DNA of 64,000 nt from Nitrospirota bacterium (lineage in GTDB: Bacteria; Nitrospirota; Leptospirillia; Leptospirillales; Leptospirillaceae): NCBI GenBank assembly GCA_021801345.1, contig JAJYYA010000066.1, forward strand, positions 1 to 64,000, in the 5' to 3' direction. Position 1 is the first letter of the stretch. Every line of letters starts with the position of its first letter. Under the pieces are notes generated by a model. The model saw only the letters and a program-made list of their open reading frames with translations. It was not told where the DNA came from and did not search any database. Shown here piece after piece: positions 5,862 through 39,301 of this stretch. Both the position numbers and the translations under genes were made by a program.

Positions 5862-6751
5862 GAGGGGGCGTCCTTCCGGGGGGGCTTGCCCGAGAGGCCG
5901 AGGGCGCGCATGAGGGGCTTGGCTCCGGGAAGGAGGGAGAAGACGCCCAAAAGAGTCCTTCTGAGGGCGTGAAGCCGGCGGTTCGGCGGAAGACGATTTT
6001 CCTTGCGGAAAAGGCGGGCGAGTGTCTGCCGGAAGAGGACCATGTCCGACTGGGGGGTCACGCGACCGGCCACGACGAGGGAGATCTGGGAGGTCTCCTC
6101 GCTCACGACCAGTGCGACGGCGTCGGTCTCCTCGGTGATGCCGATGGCGGCGCGGTGGCGGGTTCCGTACTGCCGGGAGAGATCGGAGGAGAGAGAGATG
6201 GGGAGGAAGCACCCGGCCGTGGCGACGCGGTTCTTCCGGATGATGACCGCCCCGTCGTGGATCGGGGAGTAGGGGAGAAAGAGGCTGACCAGAAGCTCCG
6301 AGGAGATCAGGGCGTCGAGGGGGACTCCGACTTCGACGACCTCGGAGAGATCGGTCGTTCTCTCGATGACGATGATGCCGCCGATGCCGCGGCGGCTTAA
6401 GGTCTGGAGCGCCTTGACGATCTCCTCCGAGTCGATCGGGGTCTCCCCGAGGGGGATGCCGAGAAGGAGCGGGCTCTTCCCGACCCGGGCCAGCGCCTTC
6501 CGGATCTCGGGCTGGAAAAGGATCAGGAGGGCGAGAATGATCTGGGACCAGAAGCTCGTGATCAGCCAGTTGAGCGTATAGAGCTTGAGCCACCCCGAGA
6601 CGAAGAAGACGAGAAGAAAGACCAGGACGCCGATGACCATCTGGAAGGCTCGGGTTCCGCGGATCAGAAGAAGGATCTGGTAGAAGACGAACCAGACGGC
6701 CAGGATGTCGAGGACATTTCTCCAGAAGGAGAAGTGAAGGAGACTATCCAT
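5858..6751 (-). CDS. cdaA: Diadenylate cyclase, membrane-bound CdaA type
   Basis: Makes the second messenger c-di-AMP from two ATP. The 297-residue product has three N-terminal membrane helices (roughly residues 12-95), then the DAC domain with the catalytic 'HDGAVII' (DGA) and 'GTRHRAAIGI' (RHR) motifs. The ATG at 6751 overlaps the folP stop by eight bases and fits the family N-terminus ([17 protein letters not shown]); the longer open frame upstream is folP shadow. Clustering with cdaR and cell-wall or folate genes is common for this enzyme. An interesting point is its presence in a Gram-negative lineage. Confidence 0.95.
   Translation of the reverse strand: MDSLLHFSFWRNVLDILAVWFVFYQILLLIRGTRAFQMVIGVLVFLLVFFVSGWLKLYTLNWLITSFWSQIILALLILFQPEIRKALARVGKSPLLLGIPLGETPIDSEEIVKALQTLSRRGIGGIIVIERTTDLSEVVEVGVPLDALISSELLVSLFLPYSPIHDGAVIIRKNRVATAGCFLPISLSSDLSRQYGTRHRAAIGITEETDAVALVVSEETSQISLVVAGRVTPQSDMVLFRQTLARLFRKENRLPPNRRLHALRRTLLGVFSLLPGAKPLMRALGLSGKPPRKDAPS

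Positions 6752-7578: not shown

Positions 7579-7592
<14 letters not shown>
6744..7592 (-). CDS. folP: Dihydropteroate synthase
   Basis: Condenses p-aminobenzoate with the pterin pyrophosphate in folate synthesis. The 282-residue TIM-barrel protein shows '[15 protein letters not shown]' near the start, '[15 protein letters not shown]', 'IDTRRP', 'INDVGG' and the distal '[11 protein letters not shown]', all standard for the family. The ATG at 7592 overlaps the ftsH stop by 14 bases, and the gene overlaps cdaA downstream, so the chain is translated from one message. Length and motifs are complete; no anomaly seen. Confidence 0.96.
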
Positions 7593-9378
<1,786 letters not shown>

Positions 9379-9455
9379 CAAGAGGGTCCTCCTTCAGGGG
9401 GTACGAATGTTGATTCTAGCATGGAGGACCCCCCTCTTCAATCGGAGAAAGGAGA

Positions 9456-29319: not shown

Positions 29320-30543
29320 GTGCCGTTTAGCGGCGACTGGAAGGCGCTGGGAGGCTTCGAGCGCCGGGTTGTGGGCGCGGCATTTTTGGGGTGGAGCCTC
29401 GACGCCTTCGACTTCTTTCTTCTGGTCTTCGTCATGAAGGATGTGGCTCGGACCTTCGGGGTGGGGCTCGTCACGGTCACGATGGCCCTCTTTCTGACCC
29501 TGGCTGCCCGCCCGGTCGGAGCGCTTCTTTTCGGCCGCCTTGCCGACCGTTTCGGGCGGCGACCGGTCCTCATGGCGGTCATGGCTCTCTATCCCCTTTT
29601 TGCCTTTCTCTCCGCGCTGGCGCCTTCGATCGGGAGCTTTCTTCTTCTCCGGGGGCTCTTCGGGGTCGCGATGGGGGGCGAGTGGGGGGCGGGCGCCTCC
29701 CTTGTCATGGAGAGCGTTCCTCCCCGATGTCGGGGGTTCGTCTCGGGACTTCTCCAGGCCGGGTATCCCTTCGGCTATCTTCTGGCGGCACTCGCCTATG
29801 CCCTGCTCTATCCCGTGACCGGATGGCGGGGGCTTCTGATGCTCGGGATCCTTCCCGCCTTCGTCGTCTTTTTTGTGCGGCGGGGGGTCCCGGAGTCGGC
29901 CGCCTTCTCCGAGGGGCGCAAATCTCCCGTCCCTTCCTTTTCGGCGACCGTACGGAGATTTTGGAAGGTCGGGGCCTTTGCCATTCTCCTTATGACCGCC
30001 TTCAACGTTCTCGGGCACGGAACACAGGACCTCTATCCAACCCTTCTCGAAAGCCGCCGGGGGCTCTCCCCGAAGACGGTCGGGGGGCTGGCCGTGCTCT
30101 ACAATACCGGGGCGATCATGGGCGGTATTGTCCTGGGGACGCTCTCCGAGCGTATCGGCCGGAGGCGGGCGATCTGGCTCGCCTCACTCATGGCGATCGC
30201 CCTTCTTCCGCTTTGGGGGTTCGGCGGGTCGCTCGCCGCGATCGCGGCAGGATCCTTCCTGATGCAGTGTGCCGTTCAGGGGGCGTGGGGCGTGGTCCCC
30301 GCCTATCTCAACGAACTCTCCCCTCCGGCGATCCGGGGCACCTTCCCCGGGGTGGTCTACCAGACCGGGAATCTTCTGGCGGCGGCGACCGCACCGCTTG
30401 AAGCCCATCTGGCCAAGGTCGCCGGAGGGCGACTCGACCTGGCGCTCGTCGCCGTTGCCGGAGGAGCGGCGCTGGCGATTGCCCTTTTGATCGGTCGCGG
30501 CCCCGAACAAAGGGGAGAGAGGCTTCACTGCCACGAGGTCTAG
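29320..30543 (+). CDS. Major facilitator superfamily transporter
   Basis: A 407-residue protein with about 12 hydrophobic segments. The signature between helices 2 and 3, 'GRLADRFGRRPVLM', and 'GWSLDAFDFFLLVFVMKDV' in helix 1 place it near the metabolite:H+ symporters that carry sugar acids, aromatic acids or sialic acid (SHS/AAHS). Substrate is unknown. The start is a GTG at 29320 with GGAG upstream; it follows the kinase gene by 38 bases. Its stop TAG shares CTAG with the stop of the convergent RuBisCO-like gene. Confidence 0.88.
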   Translation: MPFSGDWKALGGFERRVVGAAFLGWSLDAFDFFLLVFVMKDVARTFGVGLVTVTMALFLTLAARPVGALLFGRLADRFGRRPVLMAVMALYPLFAFLSALAPSIGSFLLLRGLFGVAMGGEWGAGASLVMESVPPRCRGFVSGLLQAGYPFGYLLAALAYALLYPVTGWRGLLMLGILPAFVVFFVRRGVPESAAFSEGRKSPVPSFSATVRRFWKVGAFAILLMTAFNVLGHGTQDLYPTLLESRRGLSPKTVGGLAVLYNTGAIMGGIVLGTLSERIGRRRAIWLASLMAIALLPLWGFGGSLAAIAAGSFLMQCAVQGAWGVVPAYLNELSPPAIRGTFPGVVYQTGNLLAAATAPLEAHLAKVAGGRLDLALVAVAGGAALAIALLIGRGPEQRGERLHCHEV

Positions 30544-31721
30544 ACGTAGGTCGCAAACGCCGTGAGAGCGCGATCGAGTGCCTTGTGGGTCTTGCGGTAG
30601 CGGTCAAGGGGGATCTTCTGCGACCAGGCCTCCCAGGCTTGCCGGATCGACTGTCCTCCCGCCCTCGCGCCGTCCGGATGTCCGCAGACGCCTCCTCCGC
30701 AGAGGTAGGCGAAGTCCGGTCCGAAGATGTCGGCGTGGATCCCGAGTGTCCCCGCATGCATTCCTCCGCCGACGGCGATCAGGGAGGTCTTCAGTGGGCC
30801 CATGGGCTCATTGCAGATTTCAAGGACGCTCTTGAGGTGGCTCTTCTTGGCTTTAAGCGTTCCCGCAAGGGCCGGATAGAGGATAATGTCCGAGCCCAGG
30901 ATCCGCATGAACCGGGCCCAGGCCCGGACGGACATTCCGTGGGGCTGCCAGAGCCAGTCGGAGGTCGCCATGTGGGCCATGATCGGGGCGACGGCATGGC
31001 GGGCCAGCTCTTCGAGCATGGGGAAGCCCGAGGCGGCGGGGCTCAGCATGGCGATCTTCGCTCCGGCCCGTCCCCCGGCCAGGTAGCGCTCGACCATGGC
31101 GGAGGGCCTGTCCACCGTGTGCATCATGACCCACTTGGGCTCTCCCGTCTCCTCCTCGGCACGTCTTGCGGCCTCGACCGTCGCCTCAAGACGTTTGATA
31201 TAATCCTCCGCAGGCTCCTGGAGGAGTTCGTCGCTCTTGACCACATCCATGCCGCCCACCAGACTTTCGTAGGCGATGTGGGAGTACTCCGCGGGCGTGA
31301 GTCCCTGGGACGGCTTGAGGACGGTGATGAAGAGGGGGCGATCTTTGATCTTGCGCCGCTTTGCGATGCCCTCGGCACCGAACTGGGGGCCCGGGAAGCG
31401 GGAGAGGAGCGTCTCCGGAGGATGGAAGTCGGTGAGCTCGATCGACTTCAGGATGTTGAGACAGCTGATCTCTCCGGCGATCGACAGCACCAGTCCGTAG
31501 GCCGAGGCGATGCGCTGGGACGGAACCATGATCTCGACCGTGGCCTTGCCCTTGCCGGTCTTCAAAAGGGCCGGACGGGCGGCAAAGCGTTCCGTCTGGG
31601 CCGTCTCGTAGGAGGTCTTCTTGACGCCCAGGCTCATCTCGCGGGCAATGAGGTTCGCCGCGCGGGTAAGGTCGTCGGTTCGGATCGTATAGGTGGTCCG
31701 GATCATCTCTGGTTTTGACAT
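30540..31721 (-). CDS. RuBisCO-like protein (form IV)
   Basis: 393 residues with the RuBisCO large-subunit fold, but with the form IV pattern. Seen: 'KPSQGLTPAEYSHIAYESL' (the catalytic Lys region keeps Lys), 'GGMDVVKSDELL' (keeps the Lys, Asp and Glu that form the carbamylated metal site) and 'AVGGGMHAG' in place of the phosphate-binding SGGIH. The substrate-side 'HRAMH' of true enzymes is replaced by 'MAHMAT'. So metal chemistry may persist but carboxylation is unlikely. Known form IV proteins are enolases or isomerases in methionine salvage or related sulfur metabolism; the role in Leptospirillum is unsettled. No other methionine-salvage gene is adjacent. Confidence 0.9.
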   Translation of the reverse strand: MSKPEMIRTTYTIRTDDLTRAANLIAREMSLGVKKTSYETAQTERFAARPALLKTGKGKATVEIMVPSQRIASAYGLVLSIAGEISCLNILKSIELTDFHPPETLLSRFPGPQFGAEGIAKRRKIKDRPLFITVLKPSQGLTPAEYSHIAYESLVGGMDVVKSDELLQEPAEDYIKRLEATVEAARRAEEETGEPKWVMMHTVDRPSAMVERYLAGGRAGAKIAMLSPAASGFPMLEELARHAVAPIMAHMATSDWLWQPHGMSVRAWARFMRILGSDIILYPALAGTLKAKKSHLKSVLEICNEPMGPLKTSLIAVGGGMHAGTLGIHADIFGPDFAYLCGGGVCGHPDGARAGGQSIRQAWEAWSQKIPLDRYRKTHKALDRALTAFATYV

Positions 31722-31851: not shown

Positions 31852-32535
31852 ATGGGTGATGCAATGACGGCGCGGATTGAACGGATCGACTCTTTTGCCG
31901 AGGATGTGAGGCTTTTTCGACTGGTGCCGGAGAGGGGGGAGGTGGACTTTGTCCAGGGGCAGTTCATCCGGGTCCTCTGGGAGGGGGAGAAGGGCGCCTA
32001 CTTTGCCATCGCCTCTCCCCCCTACGAAAAGAGATATCTCGAGATCCTGGTCAAGCGCGGGAAGGGGGTTTCGGAGAGGCTTTTCTCCCTGACGGGAGGA
32101 GAGATCCTTTCCTTTGAGGGACCCCTCGGAAACGGCTTTCCCCTCGATCCCCACAAGAGCCGGAATCTTCTCTTCGTCGGTGTCGGGACGGCGATCGCCC
32201 CCCTTCGTTCGACCCTGCTCGAGGCTCTCCGGCGACGGTCGGAGTTCGGACGCCTGGCATTGTATTTCGGAACGATGACCCCGAACCACCTTTATTTTGG
32301 GGAGGATCTTGCCGCATGGAGCGCGATGGGGGTGGACGTCGTCGTGACGGTGACCTTCCCCGACGCGAAATGGGACCGGCATTCGGGATTTGTCCAGCAC
32401 ATTCTCAGGGCCGAATCGCACCCGCTTCCGGGAACGGTGGCCTACCTCTGCGGCATGAAGGAGATGGTCGAGGAGACGATCGGGGTCCTCAAGGAGAGGG
32501 CGATTCCCGAGGAGCATATTCTTCAGAACCTCTGA
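31852..32535 (+). CDS. Ferredoxin-NADP reductase-family flavin oxidoreductase
   Basis: 227 residues with the FNR two-domain layout: an FAD barrel with 'VQGQFIRVLW' and 'FAIASPPYEKRYLEILVKR' (RxYS-like region reduced to 'FAIASPP'), 'GPLGNGFPLD', then the NAD(P) domain with 'LLFVGVGTAIAPLRS' and 'YLCGMKEMVEE'. There is no C-terminal iron-sulfur cysteine cluster, unlike PyrK or HydG subunits. Probably reduces a soluble electron carrier. It diverges from the RuBisCO-like gene across 130 bases. AAGGAGA lies 11 bases before the ATG; an internal ATG at 31864 is possible. Confidence 0.85.
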   Translation: MGDAMTARIERIDSFAEDVRLFRLVPERGEVDFVQGQFIRVLWEGEKGAYFAIASPPYEKRYLEILVKRGKGVSERLFSLTGGEILSFEGPLGNGFPLDPHKSRNLLFVGVGTAIAPLRSTLLEALRRRSEFGRLALYFGTMTPNHLYFGEDLAAWSAMGVDVVVTVTFPDAKWDRHSGFVQHILRAESHPLPGTVAYLCGMKEMVEETIGVLKERAIPEEHILQNL

Positions 32536-32763: not shown

Positions 32764-34461
32764 ATGGACAAGAATGATCCTCTGACAAGAAAGTCTCCCG
32801 CCTCCGCCTCAGCTCATTCTCAGAGCGAAGGCGGGGGGGCCGGGCCCTTTGCCGAGATTCTCGAGGGGGTGGAGAGCCTCCTGCGAAGACTCGACGGAAA
32901 AGAGGAGGAGATCCGGCTCGCCTACAGGATCAAGAAGCGGCTTCTCGAGATCGAAAACGACTGGCAGAAGATCTCCGACGAGTCGGCTCGCCTCTCCGAG
33001 GTTCTGGAGAAGGTGACCAAGCCGGCCTTCCGGATCGGGACCTGTCTGGGGAGGGCGGAGGACGGACTTGTGTGGGTCACGGTCGGGGGAGGGGACTACC
33101 AGGCCTCTGTGGATCCGCGGGTCGACCTGTTAACTCTCAAAAAGGGCGACAGGGTTCGTCTCAACGAGGCGCTCTCCGTTCTGGGCGCACTCGGCCTCGA
33201 CATGGCCGGCCCCGTGGTCCGGGTGGCTCGGGAGCTTCCCGACGGGCGCGTCGAGGTGGGCTCCGACCGTCCCGACAGCCAGCTCGGGACCGTCATCGAC
33301 CGGTCGGAGAGCCTCGAAGGGGAGAGCCTGTCGGCGGGAGATCTCGTCCGTCTCGACAGCACCTCCCGGGTGATTGTCGAAAGGGTCCGGAAGCGGGAGG
33401 AGGGGTATCTTCTGGCCGAGGTGCCCAAGGTCGGCTGGGAGTCGATCGGAGGCCAGAAGGAGGCCATCGGGGAGATCAAAAAGGCAATCCTGAATCCGCT
33501 TCTCTACCCGGAGTCCTATGCCCGCTACAACTTTCGCTCCCCCCGGGGATTCCTTCTTTACGGCCCTCCGGGCTGCGGAAAGACCCTGATCGGCAAGGCC
33601 ACCGCCCGGGAGATTGCCGAGCGCCTCTCCGGCAAGAAGGGCCGGGATCTCAAGGGGGTCTTTTTTCACATCAAGGGTCCGGAGATCCTCAATATGTGGC
33701 TAGGCGAGTCCGAGCGCATCGTCCGCGAGCTCTTCGAAGAGGGGGAGAAGATCCGGGCGGCGGGAGACTTCCCCGTTCTCTTCATCGACGAGGCGGAGGC
33801 GATCCTCGGAACCCGCCGGAGCGGTCGGGGCTTCAGTATCCACAATACGATCGTCCCCATGTTCTGTGCGCTTCTCGATGGACTTGAAGGACCCAGGGGC
33901 TTCGAGATGGTCATCCTTGCCACCAACCGCCCCGAGATGATCGACCCGGCAATCCTCCGTCCGGGCCGGATCGACCGCAAGATCAAGGTGCTCCGTCCTT
34001 CTTCTGAGGCCGCGCTGGAGATCCTCGGGATCCACATGGGAGAGACCGTTCCCCTCGATCCCTCTGCCGGCGATCGGCAGGCGCTCCTGCAAGGCTTCCG
34101 CGACCGGTTTTTCGAACGCTCCGATGCCAACATCGTCTTTGAGGTCCTGCGGCGCTCCGGGGCGAGAACGCCGATCTACCGGTCTGACCTTTCGAGCGGA
34201 GCCGTTCTCGGATCGATCGTCCAGCGGGCGAAGGAGCGGGCGCTCCTCCGGGAAATCGAGGAGGAGAAGGGGGGAGGGCTGACCCTCGACGATCTTCTCT
34301 GGGCCGTGAACACCGAGTTCGAGGAAGGAGACATCCTCCCCCCGCCGGAGATGGCCCTCGACTGGATGGGACTACAGGACATCGAAACCCAGGACGTGGT
34401 CGATGTGCGGCGCGTCCGGAGCGCACCGGGAGCGCGTTTTGTCTCCCGGGCGATCGAGTAG
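32764..34461 (+). CDS. mpa: Proteasome-associated AAA ATPase (Mpa/ARC)
   Basis: Ring ATPase that recognises the tag, unfolds the tagged protein and feeds it to the 20S core. 565 residues: an N-terminal coiled coil (about 28-85, which binds Pup-type modifiers), OB folds (about 90-225), then one AAA module with Walker A 'GPPGCGKT' at 267-274, Walker B 'VLFIDEAEAIL' near 338-348, and 'ATNRPEMIDPAILRPGRIDRK'. I chose the ATG at 32764 (GAGG nine bases away) over a TTG at 32653 because the added 37 residues look random. The C-terminus ends 'RFVSRAIE' and lacks the QYL docking tripeptide of actinobacterial homologues. First gene of the operon. Confidence 0.95.
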   Translation: MDKNDPLTRKSPASASAHSQSEGGGAGPFAEILEGVESLLRRLDGKEEEIRLAYRIKKRLLEIENDWQKISDESARLSEVLEKVTKPAFRIGTCLGRAEDGLVWVTVGGGDYQASVDPRVDLLTLKKGDRVRLNEALSVLGALGLDMAGPVVRVARELPDGRVEVGSDRPDSQLGTVIDRSESLEGESLSAGDLVRLDSTSRVIVERVRKREEGYLLAEVPKVGWESIGGQKEAIGEIKKAILNPLLYPESYARYNFRSPRGFLLYGPPGCGKTLIGKATAREIAERLSGKKGRDLKGVFFHIKGPEILNMWLGESERIVRELFEEGEKIRAAGDFPVLFIDEAEAILGTRRSGRGFSIHNTIVPMFCALLDGLEGPRGFEMVILATNRPEMIDPAILRPGRIDRKIKVLRPSSEAALEILGIHMGETVPLDPSAGDRQALLQGFRDRFFERSDANIVFEVLRRSGARTPIYRSDLSSGAVLGSIVQRAKERALLREIEEEKGGGLTLDDLLWAVNTEFEEGDILPPPEMALDWMGLQDIETQDVVDVRRVRSAPGARFVSRAIE

Positions 34462-34470
34462 CTTCCGTCC

Positions 34471-36048
34471 ATGGCCCCCGAGAGCCGAAGGGATCCCTGC
34501 CGTTTTGGAACGGCCGATATTCTCTGCGGGATCGAGACCGAGTTCGGCATCATCCGAAAGGATCTGGAGAGCTCCGATCCGGTGGTCGAGTCGATGGAGC
34601 TCGTCCGGGCCTACCGGGAGACCTCGTTCGGCAACTGGGCCTATGACGAGGAGGATCCCCGGGCCGATGCCCGGGGGGGGCGGGCCGAGCGTCTCGCCCA
34701 GGACGAAGAGGAGGAGGCCTTCCTCCAGACGGATATTCAGAGGGGATTTTCGTTTCGGGAGTCCAAGAGCGACCGGATCCTCAAGAACGGGGCGCGCTTC
34801 TACAACGACCATACCCATCCCGAATACTCGACCCCCGAGTGTCTGACGCTTCGCGATCTGCTTCTTTTCGACCGGGCGGGGACGGAGATCCTCCGCGAGG
34901 CGGTGCGCCTTAGGGAGGAGTCTCTCAAAGGGCCCGGCGTCCTCGGACTTTACCGGAACAATACCGACTTCCACGGACACAGTTACGGCTGCCACGAAAA
35001 CTACCTGCTTCCCCGGGAAATGTCCTTCTCCGAGATCGCCCGGGGCCTCACCCCCTTTCTTGTCGCCCGCATCCTCCTGACCGGGGCGGGGAAGGTGGGC
35101 CGGGAGGGGGAGGACGGGATCCGTGCGGACGGATACCAGATCTCCCAGCGGGCGGACTTCATGGAGACTCTTACGGGGGTCGACACGATGCAGCGTCGCC
35201 CTCTGGTGAACAGCCGCGACGAGCCCCATGCCGACAGGGATCGCTACCGCCGCCTCCATCTTATCTGCGGGGACGCGAACATGTCGGAGTGGCAGACGGC
35301 CATGAAGGTGGGGATGACGCGCCTCGTCCTCGCGGCCCTCTTTCTCCGGCCTGGTCCGGTTCCCGACCTCGCCGATCCGGTGGCGGCGATCCGCTCCATC
35401 TCCCGGGCCCGAAAGGGACAGGTCGCGGTGGCCTGCGAGAACGGGAGGACAATGACGGCCGACGAGATCCTTTCCCTCTACCGCACGCAGGTCGATCGGG
35501 TCGTGCAAAGCGAAGAGGACCGCTGGGTTGTCGAGGAGTGGGACCGGGCCCTTTCCGACTATCGGGCCGATCCCGACCGACTCGCAGACCGGGTGGACTG
35601 GGTGGCCAAAGAATCCCTGCTCTCATGGGCCTGTCAGGAGCAAAAAGTCTCCTCGGGGGATCCCTGGCTTCAGAGTCTCGATCTGGCCTACCACGACATT
35701 GATCCGGGGGAGGGGCTTTTCTGGCCTCTCGAAGAGGAGGGGAGCATGAGGCGGCTGACCCGGCCCGAGGAGGTGCTTGATGCCTGCCTCAATCCTCCTG
35801 CTCTGGGTCGGGCTCCGATCCGATCGGCCATACTCTCCCGCTTCGGAGGTGAGGTTCGGGAGGCCGGGTGGGAGAGGATCGTCTTTGTGGGAGGGGAGAG
35901 CTTCGATCTTCCTCCCTATCTTGAAGCCGATGCGGGCAAGGTTCGGCGTCTTTTGGACCGGATTGCCGAAATGGACGACCCGGCGGATCTCGGGGCGGTC
36001 ATTCGGGAGATGAACAGCGAAGGAGGCTACGGTGGAGCGAACAGATAG
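34471..36048 (+). CDS. dop: Depupylase/deamidase Dop
   Basis: Removes the modifier from tagged proteins (and deamidates modifiers ending in Gln). 525 residues of the glutamine-synthetase-like carboxylate-amine fold. 'GIETEFG' at residues 20-26 binds metal and ATP; 'NGARFYNDHTHPEYS' carries the key Asp; also 'NNTDFHGHSYGCHENYL', 'YQISQRADF' and 'DEPHADRDRYRRLHLICGDANMSEW'. A long insertion after the first strand, containing 'DEEDPRADARGG' (about residues 45-95), corresponds to the Dop loop that PafA lacks, which is why I call this copy Dop. It starts nine bases after mpa and overlaps the modifier gene by 17 bases. Confidence 0.93.
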   Translation: MAPESRRDPCRFGTADILCGIETEFGIIRKDLESSDPVVESMELVRAYRETSFGNWAYDEEDPRADARGGRAERLAQDEEEEAFLQTDIQRGFSFRESKSDRILKNGARFYNDHTHPEYSTPECLTLRDLLLFDRAGTEILREAVRLREESLKGPGVLGLYRNNTDFHGHSYGCHENYLLPREMSFSEIARGLTPFLVARILLTGAGKVGREGEDGIRADGYQISQRADFMETLTGVDTMQRRPLVNSRDEPHADRDRYRRLHLICGDANMSEWQTAMKVGMTRLVLAALFLRPGPVPDLADPVAAIRSISRARKGQVAVACENGRTMTADEILSLYRTQVDRVVQSEEDRWVVEEWDRALSDYRADPDRLADRVDWVAKESLLSWACQEQKVSSGDPWLQSLDLAYHDIDPGEGLFWPLEEEGSMRRLTRPEEVLDACLNPPALGRAPIRSAILSRFGGEVREAGWERIVFVGGESFDLPPYLEADAGKVRRLLDRIAEMDDPADLGAVIREMNSEGGYGGANR

Positions 36049-36274
36049 GATCGGGCTGCCCATGGGCAATCGGTTGAGGGGCATCGCACTGACAACGCCG
36101 GGAAGACTTGAGGAGCAGGACAGGGTTCCCTTCCCTACAAAAAAGAGCCAGGATCCCGCGGCTCCGGCCCCCAAGAACCTTGATCCGAAACCCATTCGGG
36201 ACAGGATGATGGATCGCATGCGGAAGGTCGACCCGAAGCAGTCGGAGCGCTACCGCCAACGGACGGGAGAGTAG
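36032..36274 (+). CDS. UBact: Pup-like protein modifier of the Nitrospirota
   Basis: An 80-residue, disordered-looking, proline- and charge-rich protein whose C-terminus reads 'MRKVDPKQSERYRQRTGE'. This matches the UBact family described from Nitrospirota and other Gram-negative lineages, which occupies the place of Pup between dop and prcB. It ends in Gly-Glu, so the terminal glutamate is ready for ligation to lysines by PafA without Dop deamidation. The GTG at 36032 has AAGGAGG six bases upstream, inside dop, and is the best start; an ATG at 36062 would give 70 residues. The gene stops three bases before prcB. Identification rests on the C-terminus and position. Confidence 0.92.
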   Translation: MERTDRIGLPMGNRLRGIALTTPGRLEEQDRVPFPTKKSQDPAAPAPKNLDPKPIRDRMMDRMRKVDPKQSERYRQRTGE

Positions 36275-36277
36275 GTC

Positions 36278-37108
36278 GTGAACCCTTCCGAGAGAAAGTC
36301 CCTCCAGGGAGACTCCCCTATACCTCCGCCGCGGCCGGGGTATCTTCCCGATCTTCTCCGTCCCTACGCCTCCTCTCCTTTGCTCGAGGGAAGCTCCCGC
36401 CTCTCCGGCGGGGAGGGTCTCCGGGGCGCCGCCCACGGAACGACCATCCTGGCCTTCCACTACAAAGAGGGGGTCCTTGTGGCGGGGGATCGGAGAGCGA
36501 CCGCTTCGAACCGGATCATGTCCAACCGGGTCGACAAGATCCTCGAGATCGACGGATCGGCCCTTCTTGCCATCTCCGGCTCCCCCGCCATGGCGCTCGA
36601 GATGGGGCGCATCCTCGATCACTCCCTCAAGTTCTACCGCAGGAGCCAACTCTCCGAGATCTCGCTCGAGGGGAAGCTCCGGATCCTGGCGCAGTTGCTC
36701 AAGGACAATCTGCCCATGGCCGTGGAGGGCATCGGCGCCGTGGCGCCCCTCTTTGTCGCCCGGGATGGGGATGCCGTCAGGATCTATTTCTACGACATCC
36801 TTGGGGCGCATTTCGAAGGGGTGGAGTTTTCGGTGGGAGGCTCCGGATCTCCGGAGGTTCAGGGGATTCTTCGCTACCTTGACCGGTGGGGGGAGAAGCG
36901 GCTCGCCGCGCTTTCCCGGGAGGAGGCCCTTCTGCTTTCTCTTCGCCTCCTTGAAACCGCCTCCTATTTTGATTCGGCCACGGGGGGGGTCGGGGGCCAG
37001 GATCCGGTCTGGCCGGTCGTGCGCCTTTTGACGGGCAGCTCTCTCGAGACGGTCTCCGACTCTGAGATTGCCCTTCTATACAGAAGTGAGGTGTTGCGTG
37101 TTCGATGA
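36278..37108 (+). CDS. prcB: 20S proteasome beta subunit
   Basis: Catalytic subunit of the 20S core. 276 residues with a 54-residue propeptide ending in 'AAHG', after which autocleavage exposes Thr55 as the N-terminal nucleophile ('TTILAFHYKEG'). Counting from that Thr, Asp17 ('AGDRRAT') and Lys33 ('RVDK') fall exactly where the catalytic Asp and Lys are expected. The mature chain of 222 residues is normal. The start is a GTG at 36278, three bases after the ubact stop; the gene overlaps prcA by 11 bases. Confidence 0.96.
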   Translation: MNPSERKSLQGDSPIPPPRPGYLPDLLRPYASSPLLEGSSRLSGGEGLRGAAHGTTILAFHYKEGVLVAGDRRATASNRIMSNRVDKILEIDGSALLAISGSPAMALEMGRILDHSLKFYRRSQLSEISLEGKLRILAQLLKDNLPMAVEGIGAVAPLFVARDGDAVRIYFYDILGAHFEGVEFSVGGSGSPEVQGILRYLDRWGEKRLAALSREEALLLSLRLLETASYFDSATGGVGGQDPVWPVVRLLTGSSLETVSDSEIALLYRSEVLRVR

Positions 37109-37850
37109 GCCCTACCGATGGATCGATGCCGTTCACCAAAGGCGGGACTACATCTCCTCCCAGCTTGAGCGGGCGGCTCCCGTTTTGGCCGTCTCCGTCC
37201 TCGAAGGGATCGTTTTGGCCACCTTTCACCGTCAGACGCCCAAGCTTTTCGAGCTCTACGACCGGATGGCCCTGGCCGGGATCGGCCATCCGGCCGACCT
37301 CGAGTCGGTGAGAGGACAGCTTCTCTCCCTCGCCCATGTCGAGGGGTTCCAGCGCTCCCCCCAAGACGTGACGATCGAAAGGCTGGCTCTTTTCGGTCTG
37401 GCTCCGAGACTCAAGGGCGCCTTCGAGGATGTCTCGGTGGCTCCGGTGATCCTGAATGTCCTGTTGGCCGAAGTCGGCCGGACTCCGGATCAGGACCTCC
37501 TCCTTCAGGTCTCCTTCGACGGCAATATTCTCCGTTCCACACGTCAATCGGTCCTGGCCCCGGACGAAGAGACGAGACTCAAACTCTCCAAGCTCCTCGA
37601 GGGACGACTTCCATCCGCTCCTTCCTCGCTTTCCACGGTGCTTCCTGCGATCGGGCGGGTCCTTCTCGAGGCTCTCTACTCTCCGGAAGAGCTCGGGCAG
37701 GACGAATCCGGAAACACCGTCTCGCCCGAAACGGCGGGGGAGTGCGGAAGGAAGCTTCTCTCGGAGAGGGTCTGGGAAGGCATTCTTGTCGACCGGGACA
37801 ATACGGCACGGATCCGGAGGATCCCGGCCGATCCGGGCTGGTTTCGTTGA
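37098..37850 (+). CDS. prcA: 20S proteasome alpha subunit
   Basis: Forms the outer rings that gate the core. 250 residues in the chosen form, starting at a GTG (37098) with GTGAGG a few bases upstream; an upstream TTG at 37068 is possible but lies deeper in prcB. 'MFDEPYRWIDAVHQRRDYIS' matches the alpha-subunit N-terminal helix, then 'VLEGIVLATFH', 'KLFELYDRMALAGIGHPADL' and 'DVTIERLALFG', which parallel mycobacterial PrcA. No catalytic Thr, as expected. Its stop overlaps the pafA start (TTGA). Confidence 0.93.
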   Translation: MFDEPYRWIDAVHQRRDYISSQLERAAPVLAVSVLEGIVLATFHRQTPKLFELYDRMALAGIGHPADLESVRGQLLSLAHVEGFQRSPQDVTIERLALFGLAPRLKGAFEDVSVAPVILNVLLAEVGRTPDQDLLLQVSFDGNILRSTRQSVLAPDEETRLKLSKLLEGRLPSAPSSLSTVLPAIGRVLLEALYSPEELGQDESGNTVSPETAGECGRKLLSERVWEGILVDRDNTARIRRIPADPGWFR

Positions 37851-39301
37851 AGTTCCTCTGCGGAATCGAGACGGAGTTCGGTCTCCTTATCCGGGAGCCG
37901 GAGGGCCAGGGGGCGTCCATGATCCGTCAGGAGGAGCTGTTTCGTAGGGTTCGCGACCATCTTTTTCGGGCAAAGGGGGCGGGCCTGATCGACCTCCATC
38001 AGAGGGCCTACGACGAACCTCCCGGAAACGGCGGATTCCTGCAAAACGGAGGCCGGCTCTATGTCGACATGGGACATGTCGAGTATGCCTCTCCCGAGTG
38101 CGGGACAATTCTGGATCTCGTGGCCATGGACCGCGCGGGAGACCTCCTTCTGACCGAGGCATTGGCGGATCTTGGCCTCTCCGGCCAGGTCTCCTTCATC
38201 AAGAACAATATCGACCACCAGACGCTTGCCACCTTCGGCTCCCACGAAAACTATTCCGTGCCCCGCAGCTTTCCCTTCAACGAGCGGGGGCTTGATCCGC
38301 TGGTGGCTTTTCTCGTGACGCGCCAGATCTACGCCGGGGCCGGCCGCGTCGGCGCCTCCCGCTTAAACGACATCATCCTGCCCTTTTCGGACGCCCCTCC
38401 CTCTGTTCCCTACCAGATCTCCCAGCGTGCGGACTACGTGGTCAATACCTTCTATCAGTGGGTCCAGATGAACCGCTCCATCGTCAATACCCGCGACGAA
38501 CCCCTGGCCGATCCGCTCCATTTCCGGAGAATCCATCTTCTTCTGGGGGATTCGAACATGTCGCAGTTTGCCCTGGGGCTCAAGGTCGGGACGACGCGTC
38601 TTGTCCTGGCATTGATCGAGCGCGGAGAGGCTCCGAAAATTCCTCTGGCCGATCCCGTCGCCGCGGTCAGGGGGCTCTCGCACGACCTGTCGATGCGATG
38701 GGGCGTGGAGCTGTCCTCCGGGGGGACGATCGGGGCGGTCGATATCCAGTGGGCTTTCTACGAGGCGGCCGAAAAGGCCTTTCGCGGGGAAAATGACGAC
38801 ACCGACTGGATTCTCGACAGCTGGAGGGAGATCCTTGGCGATCTCGAGAAGAAGGATCCGACCCTCGTCGCCGATCGCGTCGACTGGGCACAGAAGTTTG
38901 TCCTTCTCGACAGCTTTGCCAGGGAGGAGGGGGTGTCGTGGGAGGATCCCTGGATGGAGAGTCTCGATCTGGCCTACCACGATACCAACCCTGAGACGGG
39001 CCTTTTCTTTCCCCTCGAAGAGGAGGGGACGCATCGCCGGCTGGTCTCCCCCTCGGCGACCCGACAGGCTCTTCGGGACGGACCTGTCGGTACCCGCGCC
39101 CAGGGAAGGGCGATCGCCATCAGGACGATCATGGAGACGCCCGGGATCTTCGACTATATCATCCAGTGGTTCGGCGTTCAGGTCGACGAGGGCGAGATCC
39201 TCTATATGCTCGACCCCTACCGGAGCTATCGGCAGGAGGTCGAGGAGTACTTCTCCAGGCTGATCTCGGGAAGGGAAGAGCCGAAGAAAGAGTCTACCTG
39301 A
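37847..39301 (+). CDS. pafA: UBact/Pup protein ligase PafA
   Basis: Ligates the C-terminal glutamate of the modifier to lysines of target proteins, using ATP. 484 residues of the same fold as Dop: 'FLCGIETEFG' at the start, 'NGGRLYVDMGHVEYASPE' with the catalytic Asp, 'NNIDHQTLATFGSHENYSVP', 'YQISQRADY', 'NTRDEPLADPLHFRRIHLLL' and 'GDSNMSQ'. It lacks the Dop loop. The annotatable frame extends upstream through prcA, but homology begins at a TTG at 37847 that overlaps the prcA stop. Its last eight bases overlap the convergent DHOD-family gene. Confidence 0.94.
   Translation: MKFLCGIETEFGLLIREPEGQGASMIRQEELFRRVRDHLFRAKGAGLIDLHQRAYDEPPGNGGFLQNGGRLYVDMGHVEYASPECGTILDLVAMDRAGDLLLTEALADLGLSGQVSFIKNNIDHQTLATFGSHENYSVPRSFPFNERGLDPLVAFLVTRQIYAGAGRVGASRLNDIILPFSDAPPSVPYQISQRADYVVNTFYQWVQMNRSIVNTRDEPLADPLHFRRIHLLLGDSNMSQFALGLKVGTTRLVLALIERGEAPKIPLADPVAAVRGLSHDLSMRWGVELSSGGTIGAVDIQWAFYEAAEKAFRGENDDTDWILDSWREILGDLEKKDPTLVADRVDWAQKFVLLDSFAREEGVSWEDPWMESLDLAYHDTNPETGLFFPLEEEGTHRRLVSPSATRQALRDGPVGTRAQGRAIAIRTIMETPGIFDYIIQWFGVQVDEGEILYMLDPYRSYRQEVEEYFSRLISGREEPKKEST

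Follow-up and report, generated by a model that had tools for sequence, protein, structure and literature searches.

The window, i.e. the whole stretch of 64,000 nucleotides that was analysed, carries at positions 32764-39301 the six genes mpa, dop, UBact, prcB, prcA and pafA, all located on the + strand in one tight operon. A complete six-gene UBact-proteasome operon had been proposed in a preliminary description of this DNA, and gene order, strand and family matches confirm it. The mpa gene (32764..34461, +), assigned by Pfam/NCBIfam searches, alignment, Foldseek and a tail survey, encodes an ARC-type proteasomal AAA+ ATPase of the UBact type, and its stop codon is followed after 9 nt by the ATG of dop (34471..36048, +), a depupylase/deamidase homologue recognised by the Pup_ligase and TIGR03688 models, its motifs and matches to Dop structures in the PDB. 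The gene of the UBact modifier (36032..36274, +; 80 aa, tail DRMRKVDPKQSERYRQRTGE) starts with a GTG that overlaps the end of dop by 17 nt, and a Shine-Dalgarno sequence AAGGAGG (36020..36026, +) can be observed within the end of dop, 5 nt upstream of this GTG. The UBact stop codon is separated by 3 nt from the GTG of prcB (36278..37108, +), encoding the 20S proteasome beta subunit; the GTG of prcA (37098..37850, +), encoding a divergent alpha subunit, lies at 37098 and produces an 11-nt overlap with prcB; and the TTG of the modifier ligase gene pafA, at 37847 (37847..39301, +), overlaps the prcA stop codon (TTGA). The junctions had been described earlier as overlapping or nearly touching, and the measured gaps and overlaps bear this out.

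The pafA start at 37742, which gives the longest open reading frame, was rejected as too early; the preferred start at 37847 gives the N terminus MKFLCGIETEFG. For UBact, the ATG at 36062 was disfavoured because this position is not Met in a close relative (L038) and the GTG carries the Shine-Dalgarno sequence. Promoter and terminator scans gave nothing above shuffled sequences. The same operon was found in 16 relatives of the Leptospirillum-type family; DHOD and ThrB lie downstream in 15 of these, and in the 16th the contig edge is reached before them. By its family matches (PF20513, NF033388), the system belongs to the known UBact family, and the chromosomal address of the operon is conserved across the Leptospirillum-type family; the operon is therefore no novelty in itself. 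The closest named records, Nitrospirae and Leptospirillum MAGs, fit the Leptospirillum attribution made previously.

The Mpa protein contains the Prot_ATP_ID_OB_N and AAA domains (Pfam), and an alignment of 22 sequences identified the Walker A (GPPGCGKT), Walker B (FIDEAE) and pore loop (W312-L-G314) motifs; its best Foldseek matches are mycobacterial Mpa proteins. The Pup_ligase model was matched by Dop with 490 bits and by PafA with 413 bits, and PafA also matched PafA/Dop structures in the PDB. Dop has the Asp of NGARFYND and the Dop-loop W56-AYDEEDPRADARG, and PafA has the Asp of NGGRLYVD and is without the Dop-loop. PrcB matched the Proteasome family PF00227 with 75 bits, and its propeptide of ~54 aa is followed by TTILAF with Thr1/Asp17/Lys33, residues present in 94 of 94 UBact-type PrcB sequences. 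PrcA had no Pfam match and scored 54.9 bits against TIGR03691, under the cut-off of that model. Its AlphaFold2 model (pLDDT 88.9) had Mtb and Rhodococcus PrcA as the nearest PDB structures (Foldseek, E about 4e-14), and judged by this model PrcA is a proteasome alpha fold despite the sub-cut-off family score. An alignment of PrcA revealed an EPYRW N-terminal motif and the pocket Lys49, a lysine conserved in both UBact (91/91) and Pup (15/15) PrcA. All five partners of the modifier fall under the TIGRFAM equivalog cut-offs (TIGR03689/03688/03686/03691/03690), for example Dop with 402 bits against 492 (TIGR03688) and Mpa with 355 bits against 505.

The modifier matched PF20513 (52.8 bits, cut-off 27.8) and NF033388 (63.3 bits, cut-off 35), both above the curated cut-offs, in line with its previous assignment to the known UBact family; in the Pfam search PF20513 was the only match, with none to PF05639 (Pup). 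Its tail is RYRQRTGE: the Gly-Glu end had been correctly noted in the preliminary description, but the "RYRQR-GE" given there skips the Thr. Twelve of the last 22 residues are invariant across 109 distinct homologues, which exceeds chance, and homologues with conserved tails were found beside dop/prcB elsewhere, a point on which the earlier reading of the gene at 36032 had been made to depend. The suggestion that Dop acts mainly as a remover is reasonable for the window genome, where the C-terminal residue is Glu, as in 91 of the 109 distinct sequences; family-wide it is not, since the other 18 end in Gln, and Dop therefore probably retains a deamidase role in the wider UBact family. A second, weak UBact match in genome G140 (26 bits, L059) was discarded, with no system genes nearby.

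The same genome contains a second, canonical Pup-proteasome operon, with four Pup ligases in the genome in total and one PF05639 Pup, located at C13:8255-8443, away from the window. Two contigs of the Pup operon overlap by 192 bp at 98.4%. The operon lies on MAG contigs, and mis-binning of this genome is possible; Pup is present in 62 of the 69 UBact genomes of a 198-genome phylum sample, among them the closed Ca. Nitrospira defluvii chromosome (FP929003.1), which carries both UBact and Pup. The UBact-only genomes include G019, a single-contig genome of the same family with the UBact locus only, and G180. The earlier reading was thus right about the UBact operon and incomplete about the system, as it had seen neither the Pup operon nor the absence of an HbYX motif from Mpa.

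The window Mpa ends in ...SRAIE, without HbYX/GQYL, and its last codons, Ala-Ile-Glu-stop (34450..34461, +), are proposed from the tail survey as a docking tail replacing HbYX. UBact Mpa tails were [Ile/Val]-[Ile/Val/Glu] in 87 of 89 distinct sequences, none of the 89 having a penultimate Tyr, whereas GHYL is the ending of all 15 Pup-type Mpa from this phylum. One of the two exceptions (L138) is a frameshift, and its odd tail was ruled out as a true variant; the other belongs to a locus (L053/G130) that has lost prcB/prcA, collapsed to a remnant of ~150 aa. This joint loss of the 20S genes and the Mpa tail was observed in one genome only and may reflect faulty assembly of that MAG. Charge complementarity in the Mpa coiled coil gave no clear contrast (-0.6 vs +0.7).

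The C-terminal helix of UBact is basic (charge +3 to +7, n=101), and that of Pup is acidic (-1 to -5, n=16). PafA and Dop of one system are unusually alike in a single segment of ~85 residues, and we propose from the sequences that this shared segment reads the modifier. According to the site-likelihood map and the identity reversal, the candidate modifier-recognition segments correspond in the window to residues ~346-425 of Dop (35506..35745, +) and to residues ~315-395 of PafA (38789..39031, +), with Trp321 and Glu361. The within-system pairing of PafA with Dop is favoured by +46.8 lnL in the 87 segment columns, compared with -6.4 in the other 400, and the best 80-column stretch of the site-likelihood scan reached 46.6 against a permutation 95% level of 24.9 (0/5000). 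The PafA/Dop identity reversal can likewise be observed in the segment only. The window Dop deviates here: its key column holds Gln rather than Glu, and Arg351 occupies a site that most often has Asp. Ancient gene conversion within the operon, rather than co-evolution with the modifier, would also leave one contiguous block holding all of the discordant signal, as is observed. We consider it unlikely, because the charge contrasts fit the modifiers and PafA-Dop identity within the segment is barely higher in the same genome (0.529) than across genomes (0.502), which means that no conversion is ongoing. If an old conversion was kept by selection, it would still indicate a shared function.

Taken as a whole, we favour the explanation that a complete UBact pathway is kept apart from the Pup pathway at the modifier and at docking, with a probability of about 0.7. 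By homology, PafA would join UBact, via the gamma-carboxylate of its C-terminal Glu, to lysines on the target proteins and Dop would take UBact off them. Degradation would proceed through Mpa, which would bind tagged proteins and thread them via its W-L-G pore loops into the 20S chamber formed by PrcA and PrcB, to be cut there by the PrcB Thr1. Orthogonality of the two systems is suggested only by sequence patterns, at two points. At the modifier, the basic UBact or acidic Pup C-terminal helix would be read by the matched ~85-residue PafA/Dop segment; at docking, the [Ile/Val]-[Ile/Val/Glu] tail of UBact Mpa would enter the alpha-ring pockets, where its carboxylate could still meet the conserved pocket lysine, and Pup-type Mpa would use GHYL (HbYX). 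We lean slightly towards extending this to most UBact bacteria of the phylum, which would then have two complete orthogonal pathways, coded by modifier charge with the PafA-Dop segment and by Ile/Val-tail docking.

Alternatively, the two systems could be redundant or cross-talking, with PafA/Dop accepting both modifiers, the ATPases sharing 20S cores and the differences reflecting age. Gene order and fold are indeed alike, the pocket Lys is retained in both PrcA types, and the existence of UBact-only genomes means that both systems are not always needed. Opposite modifier charges, strictly different Mpa tails and a within-system similarity limited to one segment are nevertheless unlike neutral drift, and we regard redundancy as quite unlikely. 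It is very unlikely that UBact Mpa is bridged to the 20S core by an adaptor instead of docking via its own tail: GQYL, described as an essential feature in mycobacteria (PMC12288473), is absent from UBact Mpa, but the terminal [IV][IVE] is kept as strictly as GHYL and is gone where the 20S genes are gone. PF10759 (Bpa/PafE) matched 0 of 21 genomes, and the control genomes gave no match either.

The whole-protein tree groups PafA and Dop by system, UBact against Pup (support 100/99; AU p=0.005), but the suggested double origin, once per system from a single-copy ancestor, is scarcely credible and the parallel ligase/hydrolase origin was rejected, since the signal is confined to one segment and gone outside it (AU p=0.41 after its removal; -6.4 lnL), and the identical gene order and the Dop-loop common to the two Dops point to a single duplication, in agreement with the published view (PMC7947786). 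It is important to mention that a charge contrast in these very data first drew attention to the segment, which makes the AU shift on its removal partly circular; the site-likelihood scan covers all windows and is hence free of this circularity.

The invariant tail and operon order of the UBact system are the same in Nitrospira, Nitrospinota and Leptospirillum-type genomes; the Leptospirillum-type Mpa differs in ending in -IE, not -II/-IV/-VI, and is still within the family. The actinobacterial Pup system (Pup, Mpa/ARC, Dop, PafA, PrcBA) resembles the window system in gene order, homologous enzymes, Thr1/Asp17/Lys33 protease, pore loop and Dop-loop, and differs in that the window modifier is not a Pup match, its helix is basic rather than acidic, Mpa is without the HbYX tail and the PrcA N terminus is different. 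Archaeal PAN and the eukaryotic Rpt subunits are proteasomal ATPases with HbYX; they share with the window Mpa an AAA+ ring feeding a 20S core and a conserved alpha-pocket lysine, and UBact Mpa is without their HbYX. For Leptospirillum ferrooxidans, the double loci L1/L2 were already reported as two complete and strongly divergent copies within a single genome, one with a Pup without GGE (PMC3511204, Fig. 2 legend). UBact is not named in that report, beyond which go the co-occurrence in 62/69 genomes and the tail and segment differences.

In the searchable literature, the scope of which leaves out the original UBact description, UBact is only mentioned in passing; three bacterial-proteasome reviews do not mention Nitrospirae, nor UBact in the two where this term was checked, and nothing on point was found in the open literature on UBact function or Nitrospira proteasomes. 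If true, the existence of a class of proteasomal ATPases lacking HbYX would broaden the rule on 20S gate opening by activators. Two orthogonal pathways would, if true, give one bacterium two ubiquitin-like degradation routes, and their orthogonality would offer a natural control for what each route degrades.

The six genes mpa, dop, ubact, prcB, prcA and pafA were found in this order on the plus strand at 32764-39301, with gene ends that overlap or nearly touch; both order and junctions are as the preliminary description had them. Five of the six proteins were named by Pfam and NCBIfam. The exception was PrcA, which reached no more than 54.9 bits against the NCBIfam bacterial alpha-subunit model; its AlphaFold2 model (22 relatives in the input; pLDDT 88.9) was placed by Foldseek on mycobacterial and Rhodococcus PrcA. 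Residues 87-563 of UBact-type Mpa match mycobacterial Mpa in sequence, and the latter was also the best structural match of the moderate window Mpa model (pLDDT 74.7), with low TM-scores (about 0.3) that probably reflect domain arrangement. The ubact start is best placed at GTG 36032, with AAGGAGG 5' of it; for pafA, the start at 37742 was set aside and TTG 37847 was preferred. The operon is a complete and unremarkable representative of the UBact family.

Thr1, Asp17 and Lys33 of PrcB are retained in 94 of 94 UBact-type sequences, and Mpa retains the Walker A, Walker B and aromatic-hydrophobic-glycine pore loop motifs. The division into a ligase (PafA) and a remover (Dop) is supported by sequence, because the Dop-loop (W-x-YDEEDP-x-x-DARG) is present in Dop, together with the Asp of NGARFYND, and is missing from PafA, which carries the Asp of NGGRLYVD. 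It had been proposed that a Glu-ending modifier leaves Dop mainly a remover. The window UBact does end in Glu and needs no deamidation, but Gln is the last residue in 18 of 109 distinct UBacts, those of all three genomes of genus g3 of the same family among them, and Dop has therefore probably kept a deamidase role in the wider family.

UBact was found in 69 of the 198 sampled genomes of the phylum, in 17 of 21 genomes of the window's family (its own included), and at 218 loci in the GTDB contig set, Nitrospinota among them. An isolated UBact-like match (L059; G140, contig C1, 1039919-1040017) was rejected as probably due to chance, since it scored 26.1 bits, below the cut-off, and had no system genes nearby. 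DHOD and ThrB genes lie downstream of the operon in 15 of 16 relatives' loci, the 16th stopping at a contig edge; none of the flanking genes tested was seen to adjoin the operon in Nitrospira-side loci, so this address is conserved within the window's family only. Upstream, a RuBisCO large-subunit-like protein (30540-31721, minus strand), a neighbour conserved in the genus, matched the type III RuBisCO and 2,3-diketo-5-methylthiopentyl-1-phosphate enolase models, both below cut-offs. A FAD/NAD(P) reductase gene (31852-32535), immediately 5' of mpa on the same strand, is kept in the genus, but in the family's other genera none was found in the operon's neighbourhood. An FtsH-like protease (7579-9381, minus strand) indicates that the genome has standard AAA+ proteolysis too.

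The window's genome also encodes four Pup ligases, true Pup and additional proteasome subunits; these Pup-type genes form a canonical operon split across two contigs (overlap of 192 bp, 98.4% identity). Mis-binning alone probably does not account for this second system, because Pup is also present in 62 of the 69 UBact genomes, including that of Ca. Nitrospira defluvii, whose closed chromosome (FP929003.1) has UBact at 0.93 Mb and Pup at 3.23 Mb. The hypergeometric value for the co-occurrence ignores kinship and is not independent evidence. Two near-complete genomes, G019 and G180, carry UBact without Pup; two further genomes, G103 (contigs C87 and C89) and G069 (C16 and C135), have two Pup matches each, possibly duplicated or mixed-strain Pup systems. 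Co-occurrence per se is not a first, as a 2012 review (PMC3511204) had already noted that L. ferrooxidans has two copies differing greatly from each other. Proteasome transcripts of L. ferrodiazotrophum are described in acid-mine-drainage metatranscriptomes, and the portion of that report consulted does not distinguish the two systems (PMC4478699).

The modifiers differ in charge over the 26 residues preceding the last (UBact +3 to +7, Pup -1 to -5), and PafA and Dop of both systems were compared. In the full tree the enzymes group by system, not by function, and a PafA/Dop split was rejected (p=0.005). The per-site likelihood map gave +46.8 within a segment of about 85 residues (PafA ~315-395, Dop ~346-425) and -6.4 elsewhere, its best window exceeding all 5000 permutations. 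All 14 charge-contrast positions common to both enzymes of a system fall inside this segment, which spans 87 of the 407 assessed columns. UBact PafA and UBact Dop share 0.53 identity in the segment and 0.37 elsewhere; for UBact PafA and Pup PafA the values are 0.33 and 0.38. The key position is Glu in 82 of 83 UBact PafA; C. glutamicum PafA, like two actinobacterial Dops, has Arg there. Read most simply, the segment would recognise the shared modifier.

The second difference is at the ATPase tail. For mycobacterial Mpa, GQYL has been called an essential feature (PMC12288473); UBact Mpa ends in II, IE, IV or VI in 87 of 89 sequences (duplicates removed). One exception is a frameshift. In the other, locus L053, the tail is altered to ...APKN, and prcB and prcA are collapsed to one small in-frame fusion ORF of ~150 aa (G130, contig C37, about 6300-6731, minus strand); that genome retains a Pup-type 20S on C36. 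This single case is consistent with a tail maintained for the 20S core, although the configuration could be a MAG error. The pocket lysine is retained in both PrcA types. The N-terminus of UBact PrcA has an EPYRW motif, invariant in an alignment of 22, in contrast to FYVSPEQ in Pup-type PrcA. Of interest here are the pairing of the two systems and the two sequence codes through which they could be kept separate.
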